IMG/VR virus record: IMGVR_UViG_3300019888_000013
Location: 1 to 35,792 of that record
Direction: 5' to 3' (one strand)
Source: a virus
Length of the DNA: 35,792 nt
The stretch's first letter is position 1. Each line of letters opens with the position of its first letter. The position numbers and the translations under genes are program-made. Positions 8,582-35,450 of the stretch are shown piece by piece. Below the pieces are notes generated by a model, which saw nothing but the letters and a program-made list of their open reading frames with translations, was not told the origin of the DNA and searched no databases.

Positions 8582-8631
8582 CTTGTTCGGGAGCGCGGTG
8601 TCACCTAGCCGCGTATAACCCTGCTCCCCTT

Positions 8632-8650
8632 ACGCGGTCTTCAACCGCGT
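8632..8650. terminator. Inverted repeat at the end of the 8641-9075 gene
   Basis: ACGCGGT and ACCGCGT form a perfect 7-bp stem around a 5-nt loop, overlapping the stop codon of the upstream minus-strand gene. There is no T-run, so this may be an RNA structure and not a terminator. Confidence 0.4.
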
Positions 8651-9075
8651 GGGCCGTGGAAGCGGCCTTTACGCGGTTTCATTCGCTCTTCCAACGTGGT
8701 CAGGATCTCGAGCACCTTGCCGTTGATCCGGGTCTGCTCTTGCACGAAATCGGTCATAACTCCGGTCAGCGGGGTCAGGTCGGTTTTTGCCTTCCACTCC
8801 GAGTTCTCCGAGGTTAGCTTGATGATTCGATCGTTGCTTTCGTTGTTTTTGGCGTGGACTTCGGAGCGGTAATTGGTCAGCTCGAGGTGCGCCGCCTGGT
8901 AATGCGATTTCCAGGCTTCGGCATTGTTTTGAGCTACGCGAATGGCTTCGTCCTTAGCTTCCGAGATCGAGCGATGTTTTTGGGCCTGGAGCCAGAGTTT
9001 GCCGGAATAAATCCCGGCCGCAGAGCCGCCGAGAACGACGCAGGTTTCGATCCCTCTCAGCAGAATTTCCCACAC
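8641..9075 (-). CDS. Membrane-anchored coiled-coil protein, 144 aa
   Basis: GTG start with TTGACA 14 nt upstream and no Shine-Dalgarno sequence. An N-terminal hydrophobic segment (residues 3-22, EILLRGIETCVVLGGSAAG) precedes about 90 residues of coiled coil and a basic end. It opens the lysis cassette. The topology resembles an inner-membrane spanin subunit, but the one-piece spanin downstream makes that less likely. Confidence 0.6.
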   Translation of the reverse strand: MWEILLRGIETCVVLGGSAAGIYSGKLWLQAQKHRSISEAKDEAIRVAQNNAEAWKSHYQAAHLELTNYRSEVHAKNNESNDRIIKLTSENSEWKAKTDLTPLTGVMTDFVQEQTRINGKVLEILTTLEERMKPRKGRFHGPRG

Positions 9076-9115
9076 GCAGAGGTCGCTGCTGTCAAAGATT
9101 CGCGACTTTTTGATT

Positions 9116-9472
9116 TTACTCGCCTTTTAGGCGTTTCTTGAGCGCTTCGCCGATCGTCATTCCGTCGTTGAGCCGCGCTTTCATTTTAGCGCAGCCGCTA
9201 TCGGGCCTGAGTGTTTTGGTTTCAGGATCGATGCACGGCATCTTCAGCGCGCGCGCTATCGGGGTCGCGATCGCGGCGATTTTGTCTCCGAGAGCCGTGC
9301 GCTCGTCGGGCACGACACGGTTTTTGTCTTCACATCCGGCGATCTCGTATCGACCCCAATGACCTTCTGGGCAGGCTGCGCACGGATCATTAAAATTAAG
9401 CGCCTCCAAGTGCGGACATTTCTCACGCCTGCAAATATCGCGATGGATCTGCGCGACCTGAACCGGTTTCAT
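9116..9472 (-). CDS. Four-cysteine phage protein, 118 aa
   Basis: The ATG overlaps the stop of the upstream gene (ATGA); a longer frame inside that gene is rejected. Residues 14-34 carry CxxxxC and CxxC pairs (C14, C19, C31, C34), a possible zinc or iron-sulfur site. Two further cysteines (C49, C81) and a helical C-terminus follow. It lies between tail-tip genes and the lysis cassette. Function unknown. Confidence 0.6.
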   Translation of the reverse strand: MKPVQVAQIHRDICRREKCPHLEALNFNDPCAACPEGHWGRYEIAGCEDKNRVVPDERTALGDKIAAIATPIARALKMPCIDPETKTLRPDSGCAKMKARLNDGMTIGEALKKRLKGE

Positions 9473-10449
9473 GGTCCAGGAGGAACGACCTGGCAACAAT
9501 CGTCGTAGGATCCGGTGCAGTCGGACGTTCCCGGTGTGCAACCGTCAAGGATTGTGGGGTGGCACGCTGGATCGATTGCCCAGCGAATATTTACGACCGT
9601 GGTTGTGCCATTTGTCGAAGGCTCAAGCACCTCGAACAAGCTGCTTTCAGTTGAGCCGACGCCGATAACAGTATTTTTCGCCGTGTCAGTTGGCGAACCG
9701 CCGCCGATTGGAGTGAAACGTTCGGTCCAATAAATGTGAAGATCATTGGATAGAGCCGTTGGAATCGTGAACTTATATTTGAACCGTTGGATGGAGTAGC
9801 TGCTTTCGTCTGACGAAAGATTGCGCACCGCGGAGCATGATCCGAAGTAGGTTCCAAGATACGGCGGGAGCGCTGCGATGGTAGTCGAGACAAGTAGCGC
9901 GGTGGTGTATTCTTCGGAAAGGTTTTCCTGCAGAGTCTCCGTGGCAGTTCCTCCTGTCGAACAACCTGGGTCGTCGCATACTTGCTGGGTGTCGCTAACA
10001 GTCTCAGGGATACAACTGAAACAGTCGCAAAGCCCCAGCGCCGCCCCACAGCCGCCGAGAAAATCGCACTCGTTACCGTTCAAAACATAGGTGTTGGTGC
10101 AATCTACTGGATCGCAAATCGGACAATGTTCAGTAACGGTTCCAGAGCAGCTGAGGGTGCGGACGCAGGTTGCCGGATCATATTCATCCGTCCTTGTGGT
10201 GGATCCTGCTGAGGTATAATTGTCGCCGCCTGCAGGCTTGGAGCATGACCAGTTATCTATTTCATCTTTTCTTAGGTAGAATGTTGCTGCCTCAAAACCG
10301 CCAAAGCCGCACTTAGTCTTGCTGGCGCTGATCGAGTCGCAAACGAGCGATACGGTTGGGCATGACACGAAGCAGCAGCAATTTTTGTCCGCCAGCTTGC
10401 CACTGGCGCCGATTAGCGCCTTGCCGGAAGAGCTAACGAGAAGTTTCAT
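9469..10449 (-). CDS. Cysteine-rich tail-associated protein, 326 aa
   Basis: 25 cysteines in 326 residues. The N-terminus reads SSSGKALIGASGKLADKNCC, a duplicated SGKxL motif often seen at the start of phage tail or fibre proteins. Cysteines occur in groups (CCC, CPICDPVDC, CDCFSC, DDCC), suggesting disulfide-bonded modules as in extracellular adhesins. Residues 200-300 are beta-rich. No signal peptide is present, which fits assembly into a virion. Host binding is inference from position after the tape measure and tail-tip genes. Confidence 0.6.
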   Translation of the reverse strand: MKLLVSSSGKALIGASGKLADKNCCCFVSCPTVSLVCDSISASKTKCGFGGFEAATFYLRKDEIDNWSCSKPAGGDNYTSAGSTTRTDEYDPATCVRTLSCSGTVTEHCPICDPVDCTNTYVLNGNECDFLGGCGAALGLCDCFSCIPETVSDTQQVCDDPGCSTGGTATETLQENLSEEYTTALLVSTTIAALPPYLGTYFGSCSAVRNLSSDESSYSIQRFKYKFTIPTALSNDLHIYWTERFTPIGGGSPTDTAKNTVIGVGSTESSLFEVLEPSTNGTTTVVNIRWAIDPACHPTILDGCTPGTSDCTGSYDDCCQVVPPGP

Positions 10450-10506
10450 CTAGAAGATGGGAGGTTTTGTCTTTCTGACCTCTGCCTTCTGACCTCCGAC
10501 ATTTGA
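10450..10506. repeat. Dispersed GTCAGA-type repeat, copy 1
   Basis: Between genes, the minus strand reads GGAGGTCAGAAGGCAGAGGT and then CAGAAAG, an imperfect array of the unit GTCAGAAG/GTCAGAGG. The same unit occurs near 11931-11960 and within the portal gene near 28171-28210. Confidence 0.5.
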
Positions 10507-10719
10507 TTAGGGGCACTTCTCGGTGTTGAGCTGCAGCACCACGTTACCATCGCTGTAAATAAATTTGCCAATGCCGGCGGGCGAGACGGTGATGTTGTTC
10601 AGCGCGTTGATCGCGGCGATGATCTCGTTCATCACCTCCGCGTGCCGCGCTGTGCGCGTCTTATCGCCTTTCTCCAGGCGCGCGATCTTTTTGCCGCCAG
10701 TTTTGCCTTCGTCTGCCAT
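10507..10719 (-). CDS. Small tail-region protein, 70 aa
   Basis: 70 residues with a basic N-terminus (GKTGGKKIARLEKGDK), a central helix (AEVMNEIIAAINALNNI) and a C-terminal beta hairpin (GKFIYSDGNVVLQLN). Proteins of this shape often lie between tail-fibre genes in phages, but the role is unknown. It lies 3 bp after the upstream stop. Confidence 0.6.
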   Translation of the reverse strand: MADEGKTGGKKIARLEKGDKTRTARHAEVMNEIIAAINALNNITVSPAGIGKFIYSDGNVVLQLNTEKCP

Positions 10720-10722
10720 ATC

Positions 10723-11922
10723 TTAGAGTGCCGACGCAAAAATATCGTTAAGGCTGATCGATCGAACGAGTCGCTGCTTGCGCTCGTAAATATTTCCCTT
10801 CCACTGCTTGTAGGTGGCGTCCTCCGCCAGAATTTCGTTGCCGCTTGGTGCCAGGAAGGCGCTTAGCCAACCGTTGAGTAAATAGATCACGTTCAGAACC
10901 TGGAATGCGCGCGGCGCTTTCGGCAGATCAATCTCTGTCTCGGGGTCGTCGGTCTGGAAATAATCGTATTGCAGCCGGCTCTGGACCGTAATCGGCATTT
11001 CGGTGATCCCGCCCCCCGATCCGATCAGGACGATTTGATAGCTGTAAACAAAGCTCTCATATTCGCTTCTGGTGTCGGGAATGACCGCGTATTCGCGCCA
11101 GAACTCGATGATGCCGCCACCGATCGATTTGAAGGTTCCGGGGGATCCGCCCACATAAGTTCCGCCGATCGGGCCTGCAGTTCCAAACGGGATGTCGACA
11201 TAATTAGAGAGAAACTGCCAGTAAGGGAGCTTATAAGCGTATGGTTTGGGATCGACCTTGAACGGAATTTCGAACTGCGGCGGACCGGCTAACTGGGCAA
11301 CAGTAAAATCGCCATCGAAAAGGCAGCGGCGAAGATCCGGCGGCGTGGCCCAGCCGATCGTGATGTCCGATGAGCCACCGCCTGTCCCGACGGTGAGGAC
11401 GAAATAGCGTTTGTAAACGGCGGGCGGCCAAGTCGGGTTGGTGGCGACGAGGGTAATGATGAAAAAGCCATTGAAGGCCGACGCTGTCCCGGTAATGCGC
11501 TTGGTGGTGGCGTTATAGGAAAGTGTGCCGGGCAAGTTTTCGACCGAATAAATGGCCGGGATATCGCTGGTGACCGCCATGTTTATCGTCGCTCCAGGCG
11601 CAACCGATTGTCCGGCGACATTCGTGATGCTCGGAATTATGGGCGAGCCGGTTGCAAAGACGCTGAAAAGTAGAGTTTGCGAGATCGACCCAGTCGAATC
11701 ATTAGCGTGGAATGTGATCTGTTCGAAGGCATCAAATGCGTGGGTTGGCCCGGTATATGTGAGCTTGAGCGTAGCGGGCGATCCGAAATCTAACTGAAGG
11801 TCGAAATTGGGGTTCGGATCGACCGTGATCGAGCTATACCCCTGCTGCGCGATCACATAAAAATACTTCACCCCGGGGGAGATTTTGATCGGGCCAGGGA
11901 TTGGCGACGCGAGATAGGACAT
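10723..11922 (-). CDS. Putative tail-tip protein with Ig-like domain, 399 aa
   Basis: CTGACA lies 16 nt before the ATG. Residues 95-185 contain a cadherin/Ig-like fold of the He_PIG type, seen in LPGTLSYNATTKRITGTASA followed by a valine-rich strand. The C-terminal half (about 190-399) has an aromatic-rich region with YWQFLSNYVDIPFG and FWREYAVIPDTR and no family I can name. Its position after the tape measure fits a distal tail or adsorption protein. No baseplate hub of the lambda J type is visible, so this may carry that job. Confidence 0.6.
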   Translation of the reverse strand: MSYLASPIPGPIKISPGVKYFYVIAQQGYSSITVDPNPNFDLQLDFGSPATLKLTYTGPTHAFDAFEQITFHANDSTGSISQTLLFSVFATGSPIIPSITNVAGQSVAPGATINMAVTSDIPAIYSVENLPGTLSYNATTKRITGTASAFNGFFIITLVATNPTWPPAVYKRYFVLTVGTGGGSSDITIGWATPPDLRRCLFDGDFTVAQLAGPPQFEIPFKVDPKPYAYKLPYWQFLSNYVDIPFGTAGPIGGTYVGGSPGTFKSIGGGIIEFWREYAVIPDTRSEYESFVYSYQIVLIGSGGGITEMPITVQSRLQYDYFQTDDPETEIDLPKAPRAFQVLNVIYLLNGWLSAFLAPSGNEILAEDATYKQWKGNIYERKQRLVRSISLNDIFASAL

Positions 11923-11930
11923 TTCTCCAC

Positions 11931-11960
11931 AGGTCAGATGTCAGCGGTCAGAGGTCAGCG
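11931..11960. repeat. Dispersed GTCAGA-type repeat, copy 2
   Basis: The plus strand has four spaced GTCAG units in 28 bp (AGGTCAGATGTCAGCGGTCA and on). It lies between divergently oriented genes and contains the upstream box of the 10723-11922 gene. Confidence 0.55.
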
Positions 11961-11984
11961 GGCGTTGACTACATCAACGCCGTC
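11961..11984 (+). promoter_or_regulatory. TGAC box and inverted repeat before inverted paralogue
   Basis: GGCGTTGA (11961-11968) and TCAACGCC (11974-11981) form a perfect 8-bp inverted repeat. TTGACT starts inside the left arm, 14 nt before the ATG at 11985. It is the only plus-strand example of the late-gene element. Confidence 0.55.
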
Positions 11985-12338
11985 ATGGCCGCAGAGCTTT
12001 CCCTGAACATCAGCGCTAATGAAACCAAGAATGGCGTAACTTTTGGAGCGACCTTCAACGGCACAGTCGACGTCGCCGGGGACAGTCCCATCTTCGAAGT
12101 CAAAAGCATCGCGACCACGGACACCACGCTCGATCTTGGCGCGGTCGGGACGCCCGGCTATTTGATCGCCAAGAACCTCGACGCCACCAATTACATCACC
12201 CTCGGCGGCGACGGCACCAACTACTTCGACAAGCTCAAAGCCGGAGAGTTTATGGTGAAACGCTGGAATGGCGCGGCTGTTCACGCCAAGGCGAACACCG
12301 GCGCGTGTTTGCTGCAGTATCTGCTCATCCCAGATTAA
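11985..12338 (+). CDS. Inverted paralogue of the 17936-18289 protein, 117 aa
   Basis: The ATG at 11985 is chosen because the product then matches its paralogue in length (117 aa) and start (MAAEL against MAQEI). Shared segments include SIATTDTTL/SIATTETVL, GTxGY, an LGG-containing strand, A-x-ANTxA and a final xLLI. The protein looks beta-rich, like a small phage surface or tail protein. It is the only plus-strand gene inside the late operon and converges on the tape measure with 5 bp between stops. Transcription from the main late promoter would read it antisense. Confidence 0.8.
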   Translation: MAAELSLNISANETKNGVTFGATFNGTVDVAGDSPIFEVKSIATTDTTLDLGAVGTPGYLIAKNLDATNYITLGGDGTNYFDKLKAGEFMVKRWNGAAVHAKANTGACLLQYLLIPD

Positions 12339-12343
12339 CGAGG

Positions 12344-14032
12344 TTACTTGTTCGCCGACGAATCGTCGGTGTTTTTCGCGATGGCTTTCAGATAGTCGCG
12401 CGATTCTTCCTGCACCTTTTTCAGTGCGTCACGGTCGATCTGGTTATCGAGCCCGAGCGCCTTTTTCAATTGTTCCGCGCGGTTTTGATGCTGCTGCGCG
12501 CCCGCCACGTCGCCGTGAAGCTGCCGATCGCGCGCTTTCTTTTCTTCGCTCTCAGCCTCGCGCGCCAACGCACCCGCGCTTGGACCGTGGGTTTCGACGC
12601 CCCCGATGACCCTCGAACTAGCGATGTCATGCAGGCTAAGGCCCGCCGGATTAAGCGCGCGATGTTGAGCCTCAAAGTCTCGTTTCTCATCCGGTGCCTG
12701 CTCTCGGAGCTTCTCGCGCAGCGCCTCTTTCGCGGCGCGATCTATTTCCGCCTTGGTGCTTTTTATTTCCTTCTCAATATCGAGCTGCTTTTCTTTAAGC
12801 GTTAGCCGGTCGTCTTCGTCGCTGGTGCTCTTTCCTTTTTCTTGGAGCTCATTTAGCTCTTTCTGGAGCGAAAGCAGCCGCTCCCTCGGATTCAAGCTTT
12901 CGTCGGCAAACTTGCGCTCTTTTTCCGCAACTTTCTCGCGATGTGTCTCGAGCGCGTCGGCCTGCTTTTTCTCGGCAGCCAGTACCGCCTCTTTTGACTC
13001 ATCGACTTTGAGCTGTAACTTTGGCGCGTCCTCAGCAGCGTGCGGCGCTGAGAGATTTTTCTCCGCCGCATCCAATTTGGCCTGAGCGCTGGCTACATCC
13101 ACATCTCGGCCAGCCTCTTTAATCTTGACCAGCTTTTCTTCGAGCTCGATTGCTCTTTTTTGGGCTTCTTCCTTTCTATCGATCGCGGCCAGGGCGAGCT
13201 CAGCTTCCCGATTTGCTTCGGCTTGAAGGGGGACATTCCCCTGCTTGATCGCCTCGCCTACTTTTTCTTCTCGCGTCTTTTCTACTTTCTCGCGCTCGGC
13301 GGCGAATGTGCCCTTTGTCTCGCGGGTTTCGGTCTCGTCGTTCGCTTCCCTGGCTTTCCCGGCTATTCCAGTTCTTTCTTTTGCGAGCGCCTCTTGAATT
13401 TTGGCCGCATCGGCCTCGCGCTCCTGTCCGATGGCCCTGATATTTTCATCCAGCTTTTTATCTCTCCCGGTAGTGAAAGAGCGATAAATTCCTTCCGCGA
13501 CGACCGAGAAGAAATTCGTGCTAGATTTGCTGGCCTCTTCGGCTTTTTTGCTCGTTTCGGCAAACTGCTTTTGTAGTTCCGACAGAGATTCGTAATGAGG
13601 ATTTTGGGACGCCGCTCTTGAAACCGATTCGATCTCTTCATGTAATTTCTGAGCGGCCGCTCCGATTTTGGATATCTCGATAGCGAGCACGCCGGCCGCT
13701 ACCAGGCCGCCCAAGGCTCCCAAAGGAAGATTTAACGCTCGCTCTGCGCTCTCCAATGCTTGGCCGAAAATCTGGATCCCGCCAGCTCCGGAGGTGAATT
13801 CCTGCGCGAGTCGCCCGATCTGGGTCGCAACTCGGTGGTTGGATCGAAAGAAACCGCCCTCCGCGTCCGTAGCGCGTTCCAGGCTCTGGGTATATGAACC
13901 GAAGCTGCCCGCGCCTTGGTCCCCGGCGGTTTTCGCGGCTGCCGCAAACGATACTAAATGCTGCTGTGCGGTCTGGAGTTCGGTGTATAGCTGTTCGGCG
14001 GAAAGTCCGAGGGAAATTGATACGTCACTCAA
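12344..14032 (-). CDS. Tape measure protein
   Basis: 562 residues, TTG start with TTGACT 17 nt upstream. The N-terminal 60 residues (GLSAEQLYTELQTAQQHLVSF) have the typical start of tape measure proteins. A hydrophobic segment lies near 95-120 (LPLGALGGLVAAGVLAIEI). From 140 to about 500 the chain is almost entirely charged coiled coil rich in E, K and A. It should set tail length; 562 residues suggests a short tail for a siphovirus. It is placed after the tail tube and chaperone-like genes, as expected. Confidence 0.75.
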   Translation of the reverse strand: MSDVSISLGLSAEQLYTELQTAQQHLVSFAAAAKTAGDQGAGSFGSYTQSLERATDAEGGFFRSNHRVATQIGRLAQEFTSGAGGIQIFGQALESAERALNLPLGALGGLVAAGVLAIEISKIGAAAQKLHEEIESVSRAASQNPHYESLSELQKQFAETSKKAEEASKSSTNFFSVVAEGIYRSFTTGRDKKLDENIRAIGQEREADAAKIQEALAKERTGIAGKAREANDETETRETKGTFAAEREKVEKTREEKVGEAIKQGNVPLQAEANREAELALAAIDRKEEAQKRAIELEEKLVKIKEAGRDVDVASAQAKLDAAEKNLSAPHAAEDAPKLQLKVDESKEAVLAAEKKQADALETHREKVAEKERKFADESLNPRERLLSLQKELNELQEKGKSTSDEDDRLTLKEKQLDIEKEIKSTKAEIDRAAKEALREKLREQAPDEKRDFEAQHRALNPAGLSLHDIASSRVIGGVETHGPSAGALAREAESEEKKARDRQLHGDVAGAQQHQNRAEQLKKALGLDNQIDRDALKKVQEESRDYLKAIAKNTDDSSANK

Positions 14033-14080
14033 AGCACTAGCGGGGTGCCAGTCAATACTTGGCTGCTTTTCTGACGATAT

Positions 14081-14332
14081 CTATCTGGTGATCGTCTGGA
14101 TTTCTTCGTGGCGCTTTTCTGCTTTTGTCCCCACCGTGTAAACTACAGCAACGAGCCCGATGATAAGTCCAATCACGACAATCGTGACAAGGACTTTCGC
14201 CGTCTGATCCAATTTTAGCTTTCGCCCGCAATGAGGGCAAGCGGTGGCCGTTCCGGAAACGAGTTGGGCGCAGTCTGGGCAGGGTTGTAGTTTCACGCTC
14301 TTTATTGCCGGTAATTCCGAGCGATCGGTCAA
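14081..14332 (-). CDS. Zinc-ribbon membrane protein, 83 aa
   Basis: CPDC and CPHC pairs (C18, C21, C33, C36) form a classic zinc ribbon. One membrane helix follows (about 46-67, VLVTIVVIGLIIGLVAVVYT) and a short charged tail. The first codon is TTG; a GTG 36 nt further in would put the ribbon at the very N-terminus and is an alternative start. It sits between a glycosyltransferase and the tape measure. Role unknown. Confidence 0.65.
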   Translation of the reverse strand: MTDRSELPAIKSVKLQPCPDCAQLVSGTATACPHCGRKLKLDQTAKVLVTIVVIGLIIGLVAVVYTVGTKAEKRHEEIQTITR

Positions 14333-14343
14333 GGAAAAATAAA

Positions 14344-15357: not shown

Positions 15358-15388
15358 TGCGCTCGCGCCATAAAGTCAATGCGTCGGA

Positions 15389-16364: not shown

Positions 16365-16367
16365 AGA

Positions 16368-17021: not shown

Positions 17022-17044
17022 CGCGCCTTTTCACGCGATGTCAG
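17022..17044 (-). promoter_or_regulatory. TGAC box and hairpin before 16368-17021
   Basis: On the minus strand CTGACA, then TCGCG-N8-CGCG with the right arm touching the ATG. AAGG lies within the loop, 6 nt from the start. Confidence 0.5.
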
Positions 17045-17405: not shown

Positions 17406-17427
17406 AGCGACGGCGTCGCGTTGTCAA
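17406..17427 (-). promoter_or_regulatory. TGAC box and hairpin before 17049-17405
   Basis: Minus-strand TTGACA lies inside the odd palindrome GCGTTGACAACGC. GCGAC-GCC-GTCGC then follows and ends one base before the ATG. No purine-rich Shine-Dalgarno sequence is present. Confidence 0.6.
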
Positions 17428-17912: not shown

Positions 17913-17931
17913 AGCCAGCGCGCTGTGTCAG
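17913..17931 (-). promoter_or_regulatory. TGAC box and palindrome before 17430-17912
   Basis: GCGCTG-ACA-CAGCGC overlaps the box, and AGCGCGCT follows. Together they fill the 13-nt spacer up to the start codon. Confidence 0.55.
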
Positions 17932-17935: not shown

Positions 17936-18289
17936 TTACGCTTCAATCAAGAGAAATTCGACTTCGACCGCGGCCGTGTTAGCCAACGCATAAACGTTGG
18001 CGTGCTGCCAGGGTCCGGTGGTGCCTTCTCCGGGAAGAAGTTTGACCGAATAAACTCCAGTAGAGCCGCCGAGCTGGACGGAATTCACCGTGTCGTTGTT
18101 GCGCACCGACATATATCCAATCGTCCCGATATCGCCCTTGTGGAGGACAGTTTCGGTCGTTGCGATGCTCGCTACGCCGGCCTCGTATTTGTCGCCGGTC
18201 TGGTTGGAAGCAAAAGTGGTCGAGAGGCTCGCTGATGCCGGGCTTTTCGCGTAGCGCAGCGTGGTGGTGATCTTAATTTCTTGTGCCAT
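17936..18289 (-). CDS. Beta-rich virion protein, paralogue of 11985-12338
   Basis: 117 residues from the ATG giving MAQEI; an upstream GTG would add three residues. TTGACA lies 17 nt before the ATG. Segments shared with the inverted copy are listed there; identity by eye is roughly 30%. A small tail or head-tail accessory protein is plausible. Two copies of equal length in opposite orientation suggest duplication with inversion and then divergence. Confidence 0.75.
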   Translation of the reverse strand: MAQEIKITTTLRYAKSPASASLSTTFASNQTGDKYEAGVASIATTETVLHKGDIGTIGYMSVRNNDTVNSVQLGGSTGVYSVKLLPGEGTTGPWQHANVYALANTAAVEVEFLLIEA

Positions 18290-18417
18290 GGTGGCCACAA
18301 GCCGACTGTCAACGAGCGTCCACTTGTCCGACCTGCTTCTAGCATCACGCGCCGGAAAAATTCCTGACGCATGTTGAAAGGCAACATCTGACTAATTGTT
18401 GGTGTTATCTGGTTCAT
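18172..18417 (-). CDS. Doubtful reading frame, possible gene remnant
   Basis: An ATG with GAGGG upstream opens MNQITPTISQMLPFNMRQEF, which looks protein-like for about 40 residues. It then becomes arginine-rich where it overlaps the well-supported paralogue gene in another frame. It may be the start of a truncated gene. Confidence 0.2.
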   Translation of the reverse strand: MNQITPTISQMLPFNMRQEFFRRVMLEAGRTSGRSLTVGLWPPWHKKLRSPPRCATRKARHQRASRPLLLPTRPATNTRPA

Positions 18418-18764: not shown

Positions 18765-18786
18765 CCCGCAGTCGCGGGACAGTCAA
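18765..18786 (-). promoter_or_regulatory. TGAC box and hairpin before 18441-18764
   Basis: TTGACT, then CCCGC-N4-GCGGG ending exactly at the ATG. This is the clearest case of a stem directly at the start codon. Confidence 0.6.
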
Positions 18787-19338: not shown

Positions 19339-19363
19339 ATAACCTTAGAATTGCGTCAACGCA

Positions 19364-21633: not shown

Positions 21634-21710
21634 CGAAAGCGGAGGTGGGGTCAACCAAAAAAACGCGCGAAGCATTTCTACTCGCGCGTTCTCGAGGAGG
21701 GAACTAAAAA

Positions 21711-22109: not shown

Positions 22110-22328
22110 TTACGCTGCGTGGACGGGTTCTTTCCGGGTTTTCTCGAGTTTAAGCTGGTCTTTGGTGGCGCGGTCGTATTCGACTGCGCGCTTTACTTCC
22201 CTAAGCAGCGTCAGCGTTTCCTTGTCGATCTCGACCACTTCGCCAGCGTAAACTGGGGTGCCCTCGATCCAGGTGTCTTGCACGATCAAGGTCTTTATCG
22301 TCTCGACTGCTTGCTGCCGCTTAAACAT
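22110..22328 (-). CDS. Hypothetical protein next to capsid, 72 aa
   Basis: 72 residues. The ATG shares one base with the capsid stop (TAATG), indicating coupling. It has VQDTWIEGTPVYAGEVVEID, a small beta barrel-like stretch, then a charged helix with KRAVEYDRATKDQLK. Function unknown. Confidence 0.6.
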   Translation of the reverse strand: MFKRQQAVETIKTLIVQDTWIEGTPVYAGEVVEIDKETLTLLREVKRAVEYDRATKDQLKLEKTRKEPVHAA

Positions 22329-24523
22329 TATTGTGCTCCGGAATCTGTGCTTACGGTGAAGCTGCCGGCGTGACGGACTGCGTTATCGACCCATTCGTGG
22401 ATCACCACGCGGATCTGCGCGTTGATGTCGCCAGCGTAAGGATTCACCACAACGTCCATGCCAGCCCAATCGGCCAGGAGCAGGTCGTTCCAGTTTCCGA
22501 AAATCACTTTGTCGCTCGGCACCTGCAAGGTCGCTTCGGCCCGGTATCCGTTCACTTCGCCGGAACCGTTCTTGCCGGTTTCCCAAATGAAATTGCTGTA
22601 CTGCGAGGAAGCGATCTTGGTCGCCGCCTTCAGTTTCGCGCGAGTGTTCGGAGTGGCCAGATATGCCATTGAACCGAGGTCCGCGTTCGCGTTCGCAACT
22701 TGCGTTTCAAAATCGATCATCTTCGCCCACGTCGCCGCGGCGCTGAACGTCACTGAACCGATTCCGGTCCAGTTGATGATTCCAACAGGTTGGCCTGCTG
22801 CGCCGGAACCGTTGAGCGCCGCTAAATCGCGGGCGATCGCAAGGATCTTCATCAGGTCGTCGCGCACGAAGCCTTCCACGTCGAGCGAGGCTTGGAAAAG
22901 CAACTCTTTCTGATAAGCCGTATAAGCTCCGAGACGATGCGGGGTAAGGCCGATCTGTCCGACCGTCTGGTCGGACTCGGTGTTTGAAGCCGATTCCGAG
23001 AGCCAGTAACCAGTGGCGCCGCCGGTCTGCCGCGGGATCGCGACGTTTCCGACGAGTCCTGAAAGTGCGCGCGCGCCCAAGGAGGTCACGAACATTTTGT
23101 TACGGAGCAAATCGATCAGCTCCGAGCCGAGCACGTCGGTGGCGACAAATGCGCCGCCGGCGCTAAAAGTGGAAACGTTCAACGCCTTGGTCATCGCTGC
23201 GACCGCGCTGTTCAACGATTTTACAACTGGATCGCTAAGCCCGTTCGCTTCCGCCAAGGAAGTCGTGGCCGCGTCGTTCGGAATGAAGAAACCCTTCGGC
23301 TCGCGTCCGAGCGCTTTCGCTGTGGCGATGGAGGCTTCTTTCTCCAAGCCTTGCACGCTGCCGGTCGTGATCAGGTCGCGGAGCGCTTTGGTGAGGCTCC
23401 ATTGCTTAATTTCTTTCTTGGAGAGGCCAACGTTCGGATCGGTCTCGACCACCTCCGCTTTCAGCTTCTCGGTCAGAACGAAATGCTGAAAATCACCGAG
23501 CGATTTGCCTTCGCTGATGAATTTCTTCGCTTCGTCGCGGGCGCCGAATTTCTCGGCGATTGCGTAAATGTTTTCGATCTCGGTCGTGCGCAATTTTACT
23601 GCGGCGTCGATCTGCTCCTGCGTTTTGTTTTCGTCCATAAGTGGGCTTTGCTTTTGCTTGATTGAAATTTTTGGCGAGTCGGACTCGTCCGGATTGTCAA
23701 CTGCCTTGCCGCTTGAGTGCTCTTTCAAGAGCCGCTGCGCGTGCGCTATTGCGCTGTCCTTGGCGGCCTGGCTGACTCCTGATTGCGGGATCCGAGCCAG
23801 GGCGTTGCGCAGATGTGGTAGATCGACGCTTCCGCTGGCGTCTTTGTAGGGGAAATGCCGCAGACTCCGTGGCGTGGTCTTGCCGTCGCTATCCTTCTTC
23901 CCGCCTGCCTCTACATATAGAAAGGCCGAGTCCGGCAGATCGTCCATGTAGGCCGTGGACCAGACGGCTTTGAGGGAATCCTCTATTGGCGTCCATTCGT
24001 GTTCATTCGCGGTTAAAACGCTCTTCAGCGGAGCGATCGCCGGCAAGCGCGGCTCGGCTGGCGTCGGCGTGTAAGAAAATTCTGCGATCGGCCAGCGCTG
24101 GATCTCGCCGTCAGTTCCCTTCTTGGCCATGTGTGCGGCTGTTCCGCTGGACCATTTCAGTTTCCCGGCCGCAACCAGCTGCGAGACTGCTTTCTCGTAT
24201 TCGTTCGCCAGGTCGAGCGTGTGCTCGACAAAGAGTCCGATCTCGTCTGCGGTAGCTTTGGCCGCGCCGAAGGTGTAACCGCAAATTTCGTCGAACGCTT
24301 TGTTCGGCGCCTGCCCGTGATTGAAGAGCACGTCCGCGCCATCGCCTTTGCGCGCGCCGAAATAGGTGCTTTTCGTGAAATATTCGCCCTGGAGATCTTT
24401 CTCGTCCGGACCGGAGAAGCGCACCGCATACGAACCGACGCGTGCAGTTCCATCTTTTACTTCGATCGACTTGATCGGATCGCTCGAGTCGATAACGAGC
24501 GTTTCATCGATTTCTCTTGGCAC
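22328..24523 (-). CDS. Fused prohead protease, DUF6582-like domain and major capsid protein
   Basis: 731 residues, GTG start with TTGACA 14 nt upstream. Residues 15-165 are an HK97-family prohead protease, with His69 in LFNHGQ, Ser125/126 in KWSSGTAAH and WPIAEFSYTPTPAEP. Residues 185-270 match a DUF6582-like domain (FLYVEAGGKKDSDGKTTPRS then HLRNALARIPQS). Residues 295-415 are a charged helical scaffold or delta region. Residues 430-731 are the HK97-fold capsid (TGYWLSESASNTESDQTVGQ). The protease would have to cut itself from the capsid. No strong internal start is seen, though Met296 is available. Confidence 0.9.
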   Translation of the reverse strand: MPREIDETLVIDSSDPIKSIEVKDGTARVGSYAVRFSGPDEKDLQGEYFTKSTYFGARKGDGADVLFNHGQAPNKAFDEICGYTFGAAKATADEIGLFVEHTLDLANEYEKAVSQLVAAGKLKWSSGTAAHMAKKGTDGEIQRWPIAEFSYTPTPAEPRLPAIAPLKSVLTANEHEWTPIEDSLKAVWSTAYMDDLPDSAFLYVEAGGKKDSDGKTTPRSLRHFPYKDASGSVDLPHLRNALARIPQSGVSQAAKDSAIAHAQRLLKEHSSGKAVDNPDESDSPKISIKQKQSPLMDENKTQEQIDAAVKLRTTEIENIYAIAEKFGARDEAKKFISEGKSLGDFQHFVLTEKLKAEVVETDPNVGLSKKEIKQWSLTKALRDLITTGSVQGLEKEASIATAKALGREPKGFFIPNDAATTSLAEANGLSDPVVKSLNSAVAAMTKALNVSTFSAGGAFVATDVLGSELIDLLRNKMFVTSLGARALSGLVGNVAIPRQTGGATGYWLSESASNTESDQTVGQIGLTPHRLGAYTAYQKELLFQASLDVEGFVRDDLMKILAIARDLAALNGSGAAGQPVGIINWTGIGSVTFSAAATWAKMIDFETQVANANADLGSMAYLATPNTRAKLKAATKIASSQYSNFIWETGKNGSGEVNGYRAEATLQVPSDKVIFGNWNDLLLADWAGMDVVVNPYAGDINAQIRVVIHEWVDNAVRHAGSFTVSTDSGAQ

Positions 24524-24543
24524 GCTCCCTAGAGCGCTGTCAA
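24524..24543 (-). promoter_or_regulatory. TGAC box and hairpin before the capsid fusion
   Basis: TTGACA, then CGCTC-TAGG-GAGCG, whose right arm runs into the GTG start. GGGAG lies 1 nt before the start, too close for normal Shine-Dalgarno use. Confidence 0.55.
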
Positions 24544-27501: not shown

Positions 27502-27535
27502 AGTATTGTTTTAATCGGATCCAACGTCACGTTGG

Positions 27536-27940: not shown

Positions 27941-27946
27941 GCGAAG

Positions 27947-29887: not shown

Positions 29888-30492
29888 TGCCAGAATGGGC
29901 CGCAGCCGCCACCACGGCCGCCAAGTCGCCCCGATCCAGGTCGCCTGAACCGCGCGAATGAATTGCGCGGGTTAGACAGACCGCGATTAATCCGGTCCTG
30001 AGCCGTCTCGTTCTTCACATAGTCGGCATAGATCGAGCGAAGTTTTACCAGCGTATCGATCGGGATCTTGCTGATCTGCTGGCCTTGGATAGAAAATTCT
30101 TGGAGTCCATTCGGGAGTCTCCCTTCGATCGCCGCTTCGATAATGCCGAGCGTCCGGCTGGCGTGCGTCTCGCCGAACGACGACGCGAGATTAGGGAGCA
30201 CCGAGATCGTGCCGGTCGCAACCCGATGTCGTTCGGTGCCGTTATCGACGTATGCGGTCCAGATGTAGTTGCCCGGCTGATAGCTGGCCGTGGTGGAAAA
30301 AGGAAGCGCCACCGAGTAGTTATCGCCGTCAGCCGTCGCCGTGATCGTGATTAGCGATGATCGCGGAAGCTGTAACGAGTATTTGAGCGTCCAGCCCGCC
30401 GTGGCGGGAAAATCCGGAAACGATTTAGTCCAGGCAACAGTCTCGCCTGCTACAATTACATCAGGCTCGGTTGCGGGAATCGGCAGGGGCAC
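29884..30492 (-). CDS. Head-region protein with Ig-like and gpW-like parts, 202 aa
   Basis: GTG start; TTGACA lies 14 nt upstream, with a 6-bp ACACGC/GCGTGT stem in between. Residues 8-105 form a beta-sandwich pattern (FPATAGWTLKYSLQLPRSS, then YQPGNYIWTAYV). Residues 115-185 are helical, with TLGIIEAAIEGRLPNGLQEF and IPIDTLVKLRSIYADYVKNE. That helical half has the order of small lambda gpW-type neighbours of portal genes. It ends in a Gly/Arg-rich tail and overlaps the portal start. Confidence 0.7.
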   Translation of the reverse strand: MPLPIPATEPDVIVAGETVAWTKSFPDFPATAGWTLKYSLQLPRSSLITITATADGDNYSVALPFSTTASYQPGNYIWTAYVDNGTERHRVATGTISVLPNLASSFGETHASRTLGIIEAAIEGRLPNGLQEFSIQGQQISKIPIDTLVKLRSIYADYVKNETAQDRINRGLSNPRNSFARFRRPGSGRLGGRGGGCGPFWQ

Positions 30493-30512
30493 ACGCCGCT
30501 AAAGCGTGTCAA
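30493..30512 (-). promoter_or_regulatory. TGAC box and hairpin before 29884-30492
   Basis: TTGACACGC-N7-GCGTGT; the right arm includes the GTG start codon, which would be paired in the RNA. Confidence 0.55.
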
Positions 30513-30559
30513 GATCAACGGTGAATCAACGGCGTTTTGAGGCACTTACGCAGACTATG

Positions 30560-30931
30560 TTACTCGGATTCGGCGCCGCTGTTCTTGATTTCCCAACCGA
30601 GCCGAATCAGGGCCGATTCGTAGGCTTTTCCGGAGACCAGGTAATCGGATTCGATCGTCTCGAACTTTTCGATTTTCTCGACTGCCGTCCCGAAATCGTC
30701 CGCCTCGTCTTCAGCCAGCGCGATCATCGCTTCATGGTAAAGATTGGTGGACCTCTGCGCCAGGATCCGCGCTTCCTCGAACCGCCGCTGAGACGCTTCC
30801 ATCGAGTCGGTCATGATCTCGATCCGGTCGGTGACGGTGGTTACAATTTCATGAGCTTCGCGCCGCAGCTTGAGGAGCCTGCGCTTTTCGCCGTCGCTCA
30901 AAACGCCTTCGTTCACGACCGCTTCGTTCAT
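30560..30931 (-). CDS. Helical protein of the packaging module, 123 aa
   Basis: Starts at the ATG giving MNEAVVNEGVLS, which overlaps the previous stop (ATGA); 28 further in-frame codons upstream coincide with another gene. The product is a long coiled coil (KRRLLKLRREAHEIVTTVTD, then MEASQRRFEEARIL). No family is recognised; a scaffold or accessory packaging role is possible. Confidence 0.6.
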   Translation of the reverse strand: MNEAVVNEGVLSDGEKRRLLKLRREAHEIVTTVTDRIEIMTDSMEASQRRFEEARILAQRSTNLYHEAMIALAEDEADDFGTAVEKIEKFETIESDYLVSGKAYESALIRLGWEIKNSGAESE

Positions 30932-31086
30932 GTCAAAAAATGTTTTAACCGTTCGTTTCGCCGGATCATTCGGCTGTTGCATCCAGCTTCGTAATCCGGC
31001 TGGTAGAGCTTCCAACGGTTAAAGTCGCCGTCTTCCTTCACATGCCAGCACTCGATTCGATCCGCGAATTTAAGAAATACGCGCAC
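30928..31086 (-). CDS. Small protein, 52 aa
   Basis: A GTG-started frame gives MRVFLKFADRIECWHVKEDG followed by RWKLYQPDYEAG, a balanced, strand-forming sequence, and ends as an ATGA overlap with the next gene. The coupling and protein-like composition support it. Function unknown. Confidence 0.5.
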   Translation of the reverse strand: MRVFLKFADRIECWHVKEDGDFNRWKLYQPDYEAGCNSRMIRRNERLKHFLT

Positions 31087-31152
31087 GAAGTTATCGGATC
31101 TCTCTCGAATTTCGAACTCTCAAGACGTCTGCCGGTAAATTAGTTATCGTGA

Positions 31153-31174
31153 CGGGCTGCGTCGTATCAGCCCG
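31153..31174. terminator. Stem-loop in the 31087-31223 gap
   Basis: CGGGCTG and CAGCCCG form a perfect 7-bp stem with an 8-nt loop, downstream of the DUF3102 gene. On the minus strand it is followed by TCACGATAACTAATTT, a poor T-run, so any termination would be weak. Confidence 0.4.
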
Positions 31175-31223
31175 AACTCCGAACATCGGACAATCACCGA
31201 AGGTCAGAGCCGCTCATTCGTGG

Positions 31224-31811
31224 CTAGGAATTAGACTTCCCAATGACTCGCTCGAGCCAATCTCGACCGCACAATTCCATGATCCGTTTGATCATCGGCT
31301 CGATCTCGCGCCGGAAAATTTCGAGCGAGAAATTCTCGACGTGTCCGCTCCGCAATTGCCGGTCGTATTTTGAAAACTGGTTTACAAAGGTCAGATGATG
31401 CGGGCCGGGATTGATTTCCGCGTCGTTCGCCAGCTCGAGCCGTTCCTTCGCCGGGATGTAGCCCCAGAGAAACTTGCGCACCGTTTCAATCTCAAATCCG
31501 TGGAATTCCACGGATTTGCAGCGTGAAGCTGCACCCAGTTGTTTCCATCCCTCGTTGCCGTTGAAAAACGCCATGCACCGCTGAGCGTTGCGTTCGCCGA
31601 GCTCGGGCCAGTTGCCGCCCAGCCAAAACAGCCATTTCCCGTGGCCGATCTCTTCTTTCAGATCACAAAGGATCCGGCCAAGTTTCCACGCCCGCACCAG
31701 CATCTCGTCCCGCGTCTGGAAGAGCGATTTTTCGTCCTTCAAAATCTCGGCGTAAATCGCTTTCGCCTGCTTCAATTTTTCGTTCGTTGTTGTTTCGAGT
31801 GTTGCTTTCAT
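31224..31811 (-). CDS. DUF3102-family protein, 195 aa
   Basis: The ATG lies 2 nt after the previous stop; the 84 upstream in-frame codons lie inside that gene and are rejected. Residues 15-95 match DUF3102: an alpha-helix with RAWKLGRILCDLKEEIGHGK, then WLFWLGGNWPELGERNAQRC. This is the pattern of ParB/KorB-like helical phage proteins with HGxW and SxRxAQRxM. The C-terminal half is helical and unassigned. It may bind DNA near the packaging genes. Confidence 0.7.
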   Translation of the reverse strand: MKATLETTTNEKLKQAKAIYAEILKDEKSLFQTRDEMLVRAWKLGRILCDLKEEIGHGKWLFWLGGNWPELGERNAQRCMAFFNGNEGWKQLGAASRCKSVEFHGFEIETVRKFLWGYIPAKERLELANDAEINPGPHHLTFVNQFSKYDRQLRSGHVENFSLEIFRREIEPMIKRIMELCGRDWLERVIGKSNS

Positions 31812-31813
31812 AA

Positions 31814-32734
31814 TTAGTTGATAGCCAGCTGAGATTCTCTGCACCGCGTCCTCGTGATGTCGCCGCGCATGGCGCGCGCTTTGATCCCTGAGTAAGTGTC
31901 GCGCAGGCAGTTCGCCAGCTTGTCCTTTGCCTGCCGAGTCTTGTTCGAAATTCGGCCGAGCGCTGCTAGGGTATTTTCGCCAATCAAGTCTGGCCGGAGC
32001 ACGTAAAACAGAACCATGATCCGTTCCCCCAGCTCGGACACCTTGTCGCCGCGCCGGAGCCATTCCAAAACGGGGCCGAACAGGCGACCGCTCAATTCAA
32101 TCGCGCTCAGGCCGCTTCCGGACATTTGGTTCGCGACCAAAAAGAACTTCTCCAGTTCCTTGTCGATCTTAAGGCCGTGACGAAGATCGTGCCGCATCAT
32201 TGAGATCACAATCGACGAGCGCAATCCTTTCCCGACCAGACCGTCGCCGTCGATACACCAGCGCATTGACGCCTCAAACGTCGCCGTCGCGACCTTAATT
32301 TCCTCGTAACTGATCCCGTCCAGTTCCGCTCCGCTGTTCAGCGACGGTTCGATGTGCTCGACCGGATGATCGGTCACGCTCGCTTGCGGCAAATCCGCCG
32401 GATCGCAGAAATCCAGCGAGTCCTCGCCGCCCAGGCTGGCCCGTCTTCCAGCGTGCGCCCCGTTGCTCGGAATCGATTTCCCGAACTCTTTCGAGAACCT
32501 TCTGCCGTCCTCAGTCGTGAAAAACTTAGTGTAAGCCTGGCGAAGTTGCCGTTCCCTGGTCTGCTCATTAGCTTGAGCGCACGATTCCGCCAGAAACGCG
32601 AGCTTCCTCGAGATGGTCGCAGCCTGTTTCCCGAACGCGCCTTTGGTTTTCGGATTTACAGCCCGAAGAAACGAGAGCGATTTCTGCGGAATCGGATTGA
32701 TCCCGTTTCGAATAAGAGCCTCTAGCGATTTCAA
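31814..32734 (-). CDS. Hypothetical packaging-module protein, 306 aa
   Basis: 306 residues from TTG; CTGACG lies 13 nt upstream, which supports this unusual start. Helical throughout, with AAATISRKLAFLAESCAQAN-like basic N-terminal helices, an acidic middle (LGGEDSLDFCDPADLP) and a C-terminal half containing GLRSSIVISMMRHDLRHGLK and ERIMVLFYVLRPDLIGENTL. No domain recognised. It sits between the large terminase and DUF3102 genes. Confidence 0.6.
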   Translation of the reverse strand: MKSLEALIRNGINPIPQKSLSFLRAVNPKTKGAFGKQAATISRKLAFLAESCAQANEQTRERQLRQAYTKFFTTEDGRRFSKEFGKSIPSNGAHAGRRASLGGEDSLDFCDPADLPQASVTDHPVEHIEPSLNSGAELDGISYEEIKVATATFEASMRWCIDGDGLVGKGLRSSIVISMMRHDLRHGLKIDKELEKFFLVANQMSGSGLSAIELSGRLFGPVLEWLRRGDKVSELGERIMVLFYVLRPDLIGENTLAALGRISNKTRQAKDKLANCLRDTYSGIKARAMRGDITRTRCRESQLAIN

Positions 32735-33047
32735 GGAGCCGATATGCCGTCAGCAGGCATGTCAGCCTGCCAATGTTGGCCCCGAAGAGATAGCGTGCGC
32801 ATGTCCGAAAACTGGTCTCGCTGCAGCGAGACCGAATTTCTACAGTTCTGGGGGATTGAACAGGTCGCTTCGATTTGAAAGCGCAAGCTATTCGTCATTT
32901 TCTTAACATTGCAAGTAATTATAGATAGTGGAAACGTAAAAAGAGGGAGCAAGCCCGGATCACGCCCGGCAGTTTTGCGAGGTCTTACTGAAGGTCGAGC
33001 TTGCTCCGCATGTGTCGAAACAACTAATAATTTGAGGAGTCAATTCT
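32735..33047. other. Intergenic region with inverted repeats after the large terminase
   Basis: I see no convincing gene. It holds GCAGGC-N6-GCCTGC (32753-32770), the 20-bp palindrome at 32814, an AT-rich stretch near 32897-32945 and a long-range repeat GGAGCAAGC/GCTTGCTCC (32946-32954 and 32999-33007). These could be terminators, processing sites or a packaging-related structure. Confidence 0.5.
32814..32833. terminator. Perfect 20-bp palindrome
   Basis: GGTCTCGCTG followed by its exact reverse complement. As RNA it forms a stem with a tight TGCA loop. On the minus strand it is followed by AGTTTTC, so it may be a weak terminator after the large terminase gene; as DNA it could bind a dimeric protein. 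Confidence 0.5.
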
Positions 33048-35051
33048 CTACCAGCCGCGCACGAATCCACCTGGCCGCGGGAACTGCCGAGCTCTCCGAA
33101 CAAATGAACGCTTGGAAGACGCCGCGCCTGCGGATCGAACGGTCGGCGCGGCTTTACCTGATCGGGTTTGCTCCTCCGTTGTTGTTTGGTTCGTAGGCTG
33201 GCATGAGGCATCACCGCCTTTCACTTTCAGTTCTTCGCTCAGCTTCGCATAATTCGGTTTCACAATCCGTTCAATCGCCATTGTTCCGACGCGGCCGTCG
33301 AGCGCTTCGTTCCGAATTCCGTCGTCGCAACTGAATGCTCGATAAAATTTTCCGTCGCCGGCGCGCTTCATCTCCGAGTCTTCCGCGACCAGCATGGCGA
33401 AATATTGCTCGCTGAACTGTCCGATCTTCGGGAAATGGCAGTAGCCGTTCGCGGCCTCGTTATCCAATTCGAGCCGCTGATAGATGATGTCCTTCGCTTC
33501 GTTAGTTCCGATCTCCCATACTTTCGCCGGCGGATTGCCTTCCCGCTTGGGCCGCCGACCAATCAACGGTTTGCTTAGTGTCGTCGCACCGCGGGCCGCG
33601 AAGATTTTTTTCGACGCGCGAGGACGGGTAAAAGCGAAAACGTTATCCGGTTTGTATCCGCAATCGATGAGACCACCCATCGGACGGGAATATTGGCCTG
33701 ACGCATGAGGGTAAGAAACTTGAGAGAGAAAACGGTCCAGCTCAGCCCAGCAACCTTGATCGGGCGGCGCGAGCGGCGTGCCTTTGATGATTTGATAATC
33801 GATTCCCCAGGTTTGATTCTTGAGGCCGTAGCCATCAATGAATAACTCCAGTCGGTCGCCTTGCACGTCCACGAAAAAGAAAATCGCCAAGACGCCGGCT
33901 GGAAGCATCTTCGCCGGTTCGTATTCTTCCCTCCGCAAGAAAAGCTCAGTGTGCTCTGGCTTGTGCTCGAACTCGGCCTCGTAGGTTTCGGCGTCGACAG
34001 TGTTCACCAGCACGCGCCGCGAGCGCTCCGGGTTGTCGGATTTCTCAACGTCGATCTCTTGTTGCGCCAGCATTTGTAAAAATCCGCCTGGATATTTCTC
34101 GGAGTCCACCGGATGCGGCCAGAGCAACGCGTTCGCCTGAAAACCGGCCTTGCCTTTATAGTTGCGCGTTGCTTTCCACTCGCCCGCGCGCATCATGGCA
34201 TAACGATGCGAATCAGACAGATGCCCTCCGCATCTTGGACATTCGAGTTTCGCATCAGCGGGTCGAGCGACGTCGTATCGAAGCTGCGATCGATGCATCA
34301 CGTAAGGCTCTCCGCCACAGAGCGCACATATTACGCGCCACTGTCGAAAGTCCGTGTCGAGCAGCTTGGCCTCAATTCTACTGCGACGTTTCAAGCTCGG
34401 ATAAGAGCAATAAATCTCGATCGTGTCGGCGAATTCGGACCCGCGCTTTTTGAAAATGGCGAGCTGGTCGCCCTCGTCACTCCCGATTTCGACGATAGCA
34501 TCGATCTCGTCCGCATAGAGGACGCGCGCTTTCATCCTGCGCAGGTCGCCAGGCGCATTCGCCCCGACCATGTCGATCAAACCGCCGGCGAATAACTTGT
34601 GAAGAAGCGTGTTATCCGACCTGCGGCGCCCGGTCCCGTCGCCGACCAGATCGTAAAGCTCTGGCGTCGGCTCGATCAGCGCGCCGGTGAAATCGTCCTT
34701 GCTCCATTTCTTCGCCTGGCCGAGCGTCGGCCACATGCAGCCGATCCGGCAGGCTCGCTGGTGAATCGTCCAGCCCAGGACGTTCAAGACGATCTCGCTT
34801 TTGCCGCCGCGACTGAACCATTGCAAAACAACTTCCTGGTTCCGCGGGTTGAAACATTCCTCGAACGGCTCGCGCTCGTAAGGCGCATAATCGAACCCAA
34901 ACGGCTTCGTCGCCCCGTGCTCGTCCGGCATTCGCCGAACCGCCTCAGCCCACTCGGCCGGCGGCATGACCGACCAGGGCGCGAAATTCCTTTCGCGCAG
35001 CTCGCGAATCCCTGCGCGTAGCGAATCGCGCGCGATAAGATCAATCACCAT
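33048..35051 (-). CDS. Terminase large subunit, GpA family
   Basis: 667 residues, typical for the family. It packages DNA using an ATPase and cuts it with a nuclease. The Walker A-like motif is SRGGKSE (80-86), with a hydrophobic strand before it. Walker B is VLYADEIDA (177-185). A zinc-like knot is formed by C242/C245 and C271/C274. The nuclease domain begins with FFFVDVQGDRLELF, Asp395 being the likely first metal ligand. The start overlaps the small-subunit stop by 7 bp. Confidence 0.93.
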   Translation of the reverse strand: MVIDLIARDSLRAGIRELRERNFAPWSVMPPAEWAEAVRRMPDEHGATKPFGFDYAPYEREPFEECFNPRNQEVVLQWFSRGGKSEIVLNVLGWTIHQRACRIGCMWPTLGQAKKWSKDDFTGALIEPTPELYDLVGDGTGRRRSDNTLLHKLFAGGLIDMVGANAPGDLRRMKARVLYADEIDAIVEIGSDEGDQLAIFKKRGSEFADTIEIYCSYPSLKRRSRIEAKLLDTDFRQWRVICALCGGEPYVMHRSQLRYDVARPADAKLECPRCGGHLSDSHRYAMMRAGEWKATRNYKGKAGFQANALLWPHPVDSEKYPGGFLQMLAQQEIDVEKSDNPERSRRVLVNTVDAETYEAEFEHKPEHTELFLRREEYEPAKMLPAGVLAIFFFVDVQGDRLELFIDGYGLKNQTWGIDYQIIKGTPLAPPDQGCWAELDRFLSQVSYPHASGQYSRPMGGLIDCGYKPDNVFAFTRPRASKKIFAARGATTLSKPLIGRRPKREGNPPAKVWEIGTNEAKDIIYQRLELDNEAANGYCHFPKIGQFSEQYFAMLVAEDSEMKRAGDGKFYRAFSCDDGIRNEALDGRVGTMAIERIVKPNYAKLSEELKVKGGDASCQPTNQTTTEEQTRSGKAAPTVRSAGAASSKRSFVRRARQFPRPGGFVRGW

Positions 35052-35428
35052 GTCTTCGGATCGAGCCGGAGTTTGTCGAGCAGCTCGTTGATTCGATGCG
35101 GCGTGAGCTTTTTGCCCTTTGCTGCTTTCAACGTCGCGGAGATCGATTGAAAACTTTCGTCGATCGCGTCGAGCACAATTGGCCGAGGAATGCGTTGCTT
35201 GCGCAAATCTTCTTCGCGAACCGCGTTGAGCGACGCTTGGCTGAGCGCCTGTTTCGCGCGCGCGGCTTCCAAATTGTCAGCGCAATAAATCAGCGGCAGC
35301 GCTTCGCTCGATTCGTAAAGGTAAGCGCCCTTCTCGCCATCGACGAAATGCAAATCCTCCAGTTGTTTCGTGATGGTGCGTCGATCTCGGCCCGTCAGCT
35401 CCGAAAGCTGATTAATGGACAGCAGCAT
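35045..35428 (-). CDS. Terminase small subunit-like DNA-binding protein
   Basis: 127 residues. The N-terminus (LLSINQLSELTGRDRRTITK) is a helix-turn-helix like that of lambda Nu1. A central helix pair (ARAKQALSQASLNAVREE) and a C-terminal helix (PHRINELLDKLRLDPK) follow. It should recognise the packaging site and assemble with the large subunit, whose gene overlaps it. The ATG has GAAGGAAG upstream as well as a CTGACA box 16 nt away. Confidence 0.8.
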   Translation of the reverse strand: MLLSINQLSELTGRDRRTITKQLEDLHFVDGEKGAYLYESSEALPLIYCADNLEAARAKQALSQASLNAVREEDLRKQRIPRPIVLDAIDESFQSISATLKAAKGKKLTPHRINELLDKLRLDPKTW

Positions 35429-35450
35429 TTGCCGTCTTCCTTCGTGTCAG
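35429..35450 (-). promoter_or_regulatory. TGAC box and Shine-Dalgarno before the packaging genes
   Basis: CTGACA, then GAAGGAAG, then ATG. The box abuts a CAGTGC/GCACTG inverted repeat (35448-35453 and 35466-35471). Being upstream of the first late gene, this region could also hold the late promoter, which I cannot identify. Confidence 0.5.

Follow-up and report, generated by a model that had tools for sequence, protein, structure and literature searches.

The DNA considered here, positions 1 to 35,792 of IMG/VR virus record IMGVR_UViG_3300019888_000013 (hereafter the window, meaning this whole stretch of 35,792 nucleotides; genome G000 in our set), raises the question of what a short sequence, NTGAC, does at a nearly constant distance before the start codons of late genes that mostly lack a Shine-Dalgarno (SD) sequence. 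The window encodes small and large terminase subunits, a portal protein, a head-tail joining protein, a major head protein and an integrase. Our analysis reveals that the element is centered on the hexamer TTGACA and that it recurs before the same genes in related phages. From these sequence comparisons we tentatively regard the TTGACA box as a phage-specific start-associated sequence; the reading we favor, with a confidence that falls a little short of even, is that it acts in late mRNA at translation initiation.

Read directly, all 17 starts named in a preliminary description of this DNA carry NTGAC on the sense strand (TTGAC at 11, CTGAC at five and GTGAC at one; Table 1), and, counted from the C of the box, the start codon lies 14-18 nt away instead of the 13-17 nt given there. 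Genes were called with a simple codon-bias caller that did not consult the box, and the calls are approximate. TGAC falls 14-18 nt before the start of 14 of the 38 called window genes; in 2,000 dinucleotide shuffles a mean of 0.77 genes and a maximum of 6 did so, which bears out the enrichment over shuffled sequence. Among all 1,024 pentamers, TTGAC ranks first in this zone (10 genes, 0.0 expected). The box was described as a late-gene feature missing from the early operon, and this is mostly the case: NTGAC precedes 13 of the 29 called late genes against one of nine genes in the early half, which is thus not wholly free of it. SD-like cores are found at just 2 of the 29 late genes, in agreement with the earlier remark that they are mostly missing.

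The box has a simple anatomy. The alignment of 40 TTGAC sites gives the consensus C-W-TTGACA followed by a GC-rich spacer; the strong positions are the box itself and the next A (32/40), preceded by a mild preference for C and then A/T, and the positions from -60 to +70 show no second box at a constant distance. Over 54 sites the spacing to the start codon is 14 nt in 10 cases, 15 nt in 12, 16 nt in six, 17 nt in 18 and 18 nt in eight. The GC content of the spacer is 74%, versus 60% in control upstream regions, and the start codons of 47 boxed genes include 10 GTG and one TTG. At several sites the TGA of the box doubles as the stop codon of the preceding gene, and the gap is then 15-17 nt; at others the upstream stop lies a few nucleotides before the box, leaving gaps of 23-31 nt. 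The box has a marked gene context: it is present at 19 of the 60 genes that lie behind a gap of 13-45 nt versus 3 of the 99 coupled genes (Fisher 6.5e-7), so that the claim that coupled genes lack it is nearly, though not entirely, correct.

The relatives in which the box was followed are divergent. A search of annotated phages gave no near match to the window, and a portal search of named genomes gave no matches; three fragments (L009, L010 and L011) contain portal relatives. Prophages were reached by a 16S pattern and a search of the phylum, and the best match among the 388 Verrucomicrobiota genomes searched is a prophage in G321; the 16S of its host has its nearest counterparts, at 91-92%, in metagenome-assembled genomes of Akkermansiaceae and Verrucomicrobiaceae. 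Judged from these relatives, the host of the window phage is probably a verrucomicrobium as well. A terminase scan yielded 80 loci, and several of the relatives are fragments. The box-bearing set consists of the window, G001, G002, G003, G400, G401, the 1-40 kb part of G403 and the G321 prophage. The genes shared with the distant G321 prophage by BLAST are only those for the large terminase subunit (TerL), the portal, the head-tail protein and the major head protein.

In these phages the box is conserved at particular genes. Taken one by one, G003, the G321 prophage, G400, G401 and G403 each have TTGAC as the highest-ranking pentamer 14-18 nt before starts; when the relatives are pooled, TTGAC stands before 30 of 262 genes (0.5 expected) and TTGACA before 21 (0.4 expected). 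The head-tail joining gene has the box in all seven phages, at protein identities down to 26%; the portal gene, overlapping it or coming right after it, is boxed in none of the seven. The box is kept at orthologous genes even where the surroundings cannot be aligned. The start codons are sound, since the N-termini of the head-tail and small terminase (TerS) proteins align across phages from the start codon. In a terminase tree the box-bearing phages fall in at least three places, the deepest placement being unsure because of long branches. Chance or an artefact of gene calling might be suspected because the TGA of the box is sometimes an upstream stop codon or an in-frame stop, which limits the possible start calls; with rank 1 of 1,024 in six separate phages, a shuffle maximum less than half the observed count and conservation at orthologous genes in unalignable surroundings, we give this explanation practically no weight.

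The box belongs to the phages and not to their host, since in the single host genome sampled with a boxed prophage (G321, 440 kb) only 1 of 331 of the host's own starts carries it; a host-wide signal is thereby rejected. Other Verrucomicrobiota prophages, with distant portals or terminases, have no box, and several of them use SD sequences. Loose pattern counts across the phylum proved uninterpretable, since the codons TTT and GAC often stand side by side.

A role in translation initiation is favored by the preference for uncoupled starts, the scarcity of SD sequences and the avoidance of TTGAC on the sense strand within window genes (4 versus 20 expected, rank 8 of 895, on small numbers; on the antisense strand 12 versus 22 expected). 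The unit is C-W-TTGACA, a GC-rich spacer of 14-18 nt and the start codon; these Verrucomicrobiota phages, whose genes are mostly SD-less, put it before late genes that upstream coupling cannot reach, and its presence, position and conservation, its preference for gapped genes and its absence from the one host genome sampled are shown by the counts above. In the late polycistronic mRNA, UUGACA would lie at about -16 to -22, where the mRNA exits the 30S subunit, and a phage-supplied or phage-recruited factor may bind it and load the ribosome on the next start codon, so that binding to the box would substitute for SD pairing. The spacer hairpin of 4-7 bp that is often seen in the window would sit where the SD/anti-SD duplex normally lies; its stem is supported by folding statistics, and it may tune initiation or fix the distance, as an optional part. 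In its most specific form, a non-SD initiation in which UUGACA at about -20, a phage-specified factor and a GC-rich spacer replace the SD/anti-SD duplex, and other clades have other boxes, the proposal is rather unlikely. If it is true, specificity is set by the phage, and other phage clades of the same hosts use other boxes, such as the GTTTTG of a sister group.

Several observations weigh against a role in translation. In the pooled phages TTGAC avoidance shows no strand asymmetry (sense 0.63, antisense 0.58). Many gapped genes of the box-bearing phages have neither box nor SD sequence, so the box is not obligatory. BLAST among the phages found no trans-acting factor common to all box-bearing members. 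GC-rich, foldable spacers normally hinder initiation. Lastly, a sister phage group (L161-L202, for instance L173, L180 and L189, together with L245 and the 40-52 kb part of G403) has a two-box element, TTGAA-N10-GTTTTGTNGA, and this suggests a DNA-level role in that group. As TTGAA-N10-GTTTTGT, it ends 12-14 nt before many starts, often as mirrored divergent pairs, and it also precedes the same head-tail gene.

The G403 contig (L243-L245, 51.7 kb) contains two phage modules and may join two phages. At 1-40 kb, TTGAC boxes precede 6 of 42 genes and TTTTGT none, with a GC content of 65% over 1-37 kb; at 40-52 kb, TTTTGT boxes precede 3 of 10 genes and TTGAC none, with a GC content of 58%.

The promoter-like sister element, placed before divergent genes and the shared head-tail gene, is one argument for a DNA-level phage promoter, in which a phage-modified host RNA polymerase would read TTGACA and start at or just before the start codon, giving late mRNAs with short leaders or none. 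The sampled host offers a further hint: host loci L121-L122 and L138-L157 show, 30-36 nt upstream of starts, a weak TTGNM excess, and CACC directly ahead of the ATG, which suggests many leaderless or short-leader mRNAs and hints at leaderless promoters close to start codons. In the box-bearing phages, however, the box stands alone without a partner, the region that would need melting is GC-rich, GTG and TTG serve as starts, the spacing spreads over 4 nt and boxes occur in 15-31 nt gaps within one operon, some of them overlapping the upstream stop codon; in addition, no phage RNA polymerase or sigma factor was recognised among the window proteins scanned. The tolerance of weak start codons disfavors leaderless mRNA in particular. 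An ordinary -35 box, which the preliminary description had already doubted, is excluded by geometry, since transcription would start inside the gene, and because a -10 element is missing some 17 nt further on; the GC-rich spacer and the conserved start codons led us to the same rejection. The avoidance of TTGAC in coding sequence was also considered as proof of a promoter, because it first appeared strong on both strands, and was set aside once ranking against all pentamers had weakened it (51 of 512 in the host, which is unremarkable, and a modest effect in the phages). We consider such a phage promoter conceivable though unlikely: the tight tie to non-coupled start codons favors initiation at the RNA level, and the promoter-like box of the sister group at the same place keeps the DNA level open.

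The preliminary description also reported a mini-hairpin beside the start codon, with an architecture like that of covarying RNA. About 10 of 16 window spacers fold, the longest stems (5-7 bp) preceding the genes at 14032, 17021, 17405, 18764, 24523 and 30492, and no hairpin is found at 11922, 11985(+), 19338, 21633 and 35428. Against composition-matched shuffles, in which the box base and the start codon were held fixed, the 16 window spacers are more stable as a set (mean -3.79 versus -1.99 kcal/mol, z -4.5). The hairpin is thus real in the window, although several of the boxed sites have no stem. The 38 spacers of the relatives fold no better than shuffles (z -0.64, p 0.24), and the upstream regions of unboxed genes show no folding beyond shuffles. 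At the head-tail gene the stem persists with different bases in the two closest relatives; at the G002 major head gene it is absent, and stems beyond the window are otherwise limited to some sites of the closest relatives and scattered sites elsewhere. Rfam gave no match at gathering score within the window. Since the hairpin is significant in the window and not in the relatives, covariation is not supported across the clade and a clade-wide covarying hairpin was rejected; any covariation is confined at most to the closest relatives. What the phages have kept in common is the hexamer, its distance from the start and a GC-rich spacer, not the stem.

The position of the box just upstream of this hairpin in the window phage, and its recurrence at gapped genes, would also fit an RNA-processing site, where an endonuclease that recognises UUGACA would cut the late mRNA there and the hairpin would cap and protect the 5' end of the short leader. 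The hairpins are not conserved in relatives, however, and no endonuclease candidate was found, which leaves this explanation improbable.

Table 1. Boxes preceding gene starts in the window
Feature	Position	Strand	Gene start and remarks
GTGAC box	8600..8604	-	18 nt before ATG 8581; weak variant
TTGAC box	9091..9095	-	15 nt before GTG 9075; GCAG-N6-CTGC stem in spacer
CTGAC box	11940..11944	-	17 nt before ATG 11922; one of four TGACs in CTGAC tandem array; no hairpin
TTGAC box	11965..11969	+	15 nt before ATG 11985 (divergent gene); no stable hairpin
TTGAC box	14051..14055	-	18 nt before TTG 14032; 5-bp stem
TTGAC box	15375..15379	-	17 nt before ATG 15357; 3-bp stem
CTGACA box	17040..17044	-	18 nt before ATG 17021; 7-bp stem
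TTGACA box	17423..17427	-	17 nt before ATG 17405; 5-bp stem GCGAC-N3-GTCGC
CTGACA box	17927..17931	-	14 nt before ATG 17912; weak stem
TTGACA box	18308..18312	-	18 nt before ATG 18289; 4-bp stem
TTGACT box	18782..18786	-	17 nt before ATG 18764; 7-bp stem
TTGACG box	19355..19359	-	16 nt before ATG 19338 (45-codon ORF, open reading frame); no hairpin
TTGACC box	21650..21654	-	16 nt before ATG 21633; no hairpin
TTGACA box	24539..24543	-	15 nt before GTG 24523 (major head protein, N-terminal extension); 6-bp stem
TTGACA box	30508..30512	-	15 nt before GTG 30492 (head-tail joining, phrog_5774); 5-bp stem; box in 7/7 phages
CTGACG box	32749..32753	-	14 nt before TTG 32734 (306-aa protein of unknown function)
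CTGACA box	35446..35450	-	17 nt before ATG 35428 (small terminase); SD-like AAGGA too

Two further boxes in Table 1 recur in relatives: that of the major head gene at 24523 is also found at the G002, G400 and G321 prophage orthologues and before the G003 gene at the same position, and CTGACA also precedes the G401 small terminase orthologue. The intergenic stretch 11923-11984, between two divergent genes, contains a tandem CTGAC array with TGAC at 10, 17, 24 and 31 nt before ATG 11922.

Some of the window genes are of interest in their own right. The major head protein (22328-24523, minus strand) has a long N-terminal extension whose counterpart in G003 is a separate gene (37482-38951) with its own box; the extension is probably a fused maturation protease. 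The proteins encoded at 11985-12338 (plus strand) and 17936-18289 (minus strand) match one G003 protein (251-610) and look like paralogues by this comparison; the former gene lies on the strand opposite to its late neighbors. Between the large terminase and head-tail genes, 31224-32734 (minus strand) encodes a DUF3102 protein and the 306-aa protein, both of which are conserved in G002, G400 and G401 by BLAST among the phages and are confined to these closer relatives. The protein encoded at 3619-4953 (plus strand) contains many tandem S-V-[WRG]-[DGA] repeats followed by a DUF6745 domain.

Gene starts without SD sequences are an open question in several phyla, and the phages of Verrucomicrobiota have hardly been studied. 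The box provides a defined and testable element, a hexamer that is kept at corresponding genes although the phages have only about a quarter of their residues in common, and that the sampled host lacks. With it, the start-associated sequences of actinobacteriophages, themselves unexplained, gain a counterpart in another phylum and at virion genes, and phages of this type may become easier to spot in metagenomic data.

Among known systems, the stoperators of cluster A mycobacteriophages (PMC9283540) share with the box the presence of many asymmetric sites along a temperate phage genome. A similar operator, with a lysogenic repressor acting on such sites near gene starts and blocking late-gene transcription, could be imagined here, given the integrase in the window, the prophage in G321 and the one-way sites in short intergenic gaps. 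Stoperators, however, are DNA sites of 13 bp at which a bound repressor halts elongating transcription, and their binding depends on flanking bases (PMC9283540), whereas only 6 bp are conserved in the box, its spacing is locked to start codons, it avoids coupled genes and no repressor was identified; an operator of this kind is accordingly a poor candidate. SD-poor initiation in some Verrucomicrobiota (PMC10783764) and Kozak-like initiation in Bacteroidota (PMC6847099) likewise involve starts without SD sequences, but these are host-wide, while the genes of the sampled host lack the TTGACA box.

The closest parallels are found in phages of other hosts. Start-linked motifs in Microbacterium phage clusters EC, EF and EG (PMC7302621), whose function awaits tests (PMC12699233), resemble the box, in EC and EG, in recurring within short intergenic gaps about as far from the start. 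The EC motif is 18 bp long and lies 21-30 bp upstream, and the EG inverted repeat lies 14-22 bp upstream (PMC7302621); both differ from the box in their longer conserved sequence, in the sequence itself and in host phylum, and the EC motif stands upstream of a normal ribosome-binding site.

The start-associated sequences (SAS) and extended SAS (ESAS) of cluster K mycobacteriophages are one-way repeats beside start codons that recur at the same gene families and are all but missing from the host; a role in translation initiation was suggested by the authors who described them, and the function is unproven (PMC3203893). With SAS (PMC3203893) and the cluster EF motif (PMC7302621) the box shares the character of a short, one-way, phage-specific motif, in a fixed place before the same gene families and rare in the host: its 54 sites have one orientation and a set distance, it stands before the head-tail gene in every phage compared and it is found at a single host start. 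SAS proper is a 13-bp sequence, GGGATAGGAGCCC, with an SD-like core at the ribosome-binding position, mostly outside structural genes (PMC12699233), whereas the box has 6 bp, no resemblance to an SD sequence, a place 14-18 nt upstream and a preference for structural genes in Verrucomicrobiota phages; instead of GGGATAGGAGCCC we find C-W-TTGACA, and SD cores are rare. The ESAS are imperfect 17-bp inverted repeats adjacent to the SAS motif, and the stems found here have at most 7 bp and occur at a minority of sites outside the window. The TTGACA box thus shares the logic of SAS and differs in sequence, length, position and host phylum.

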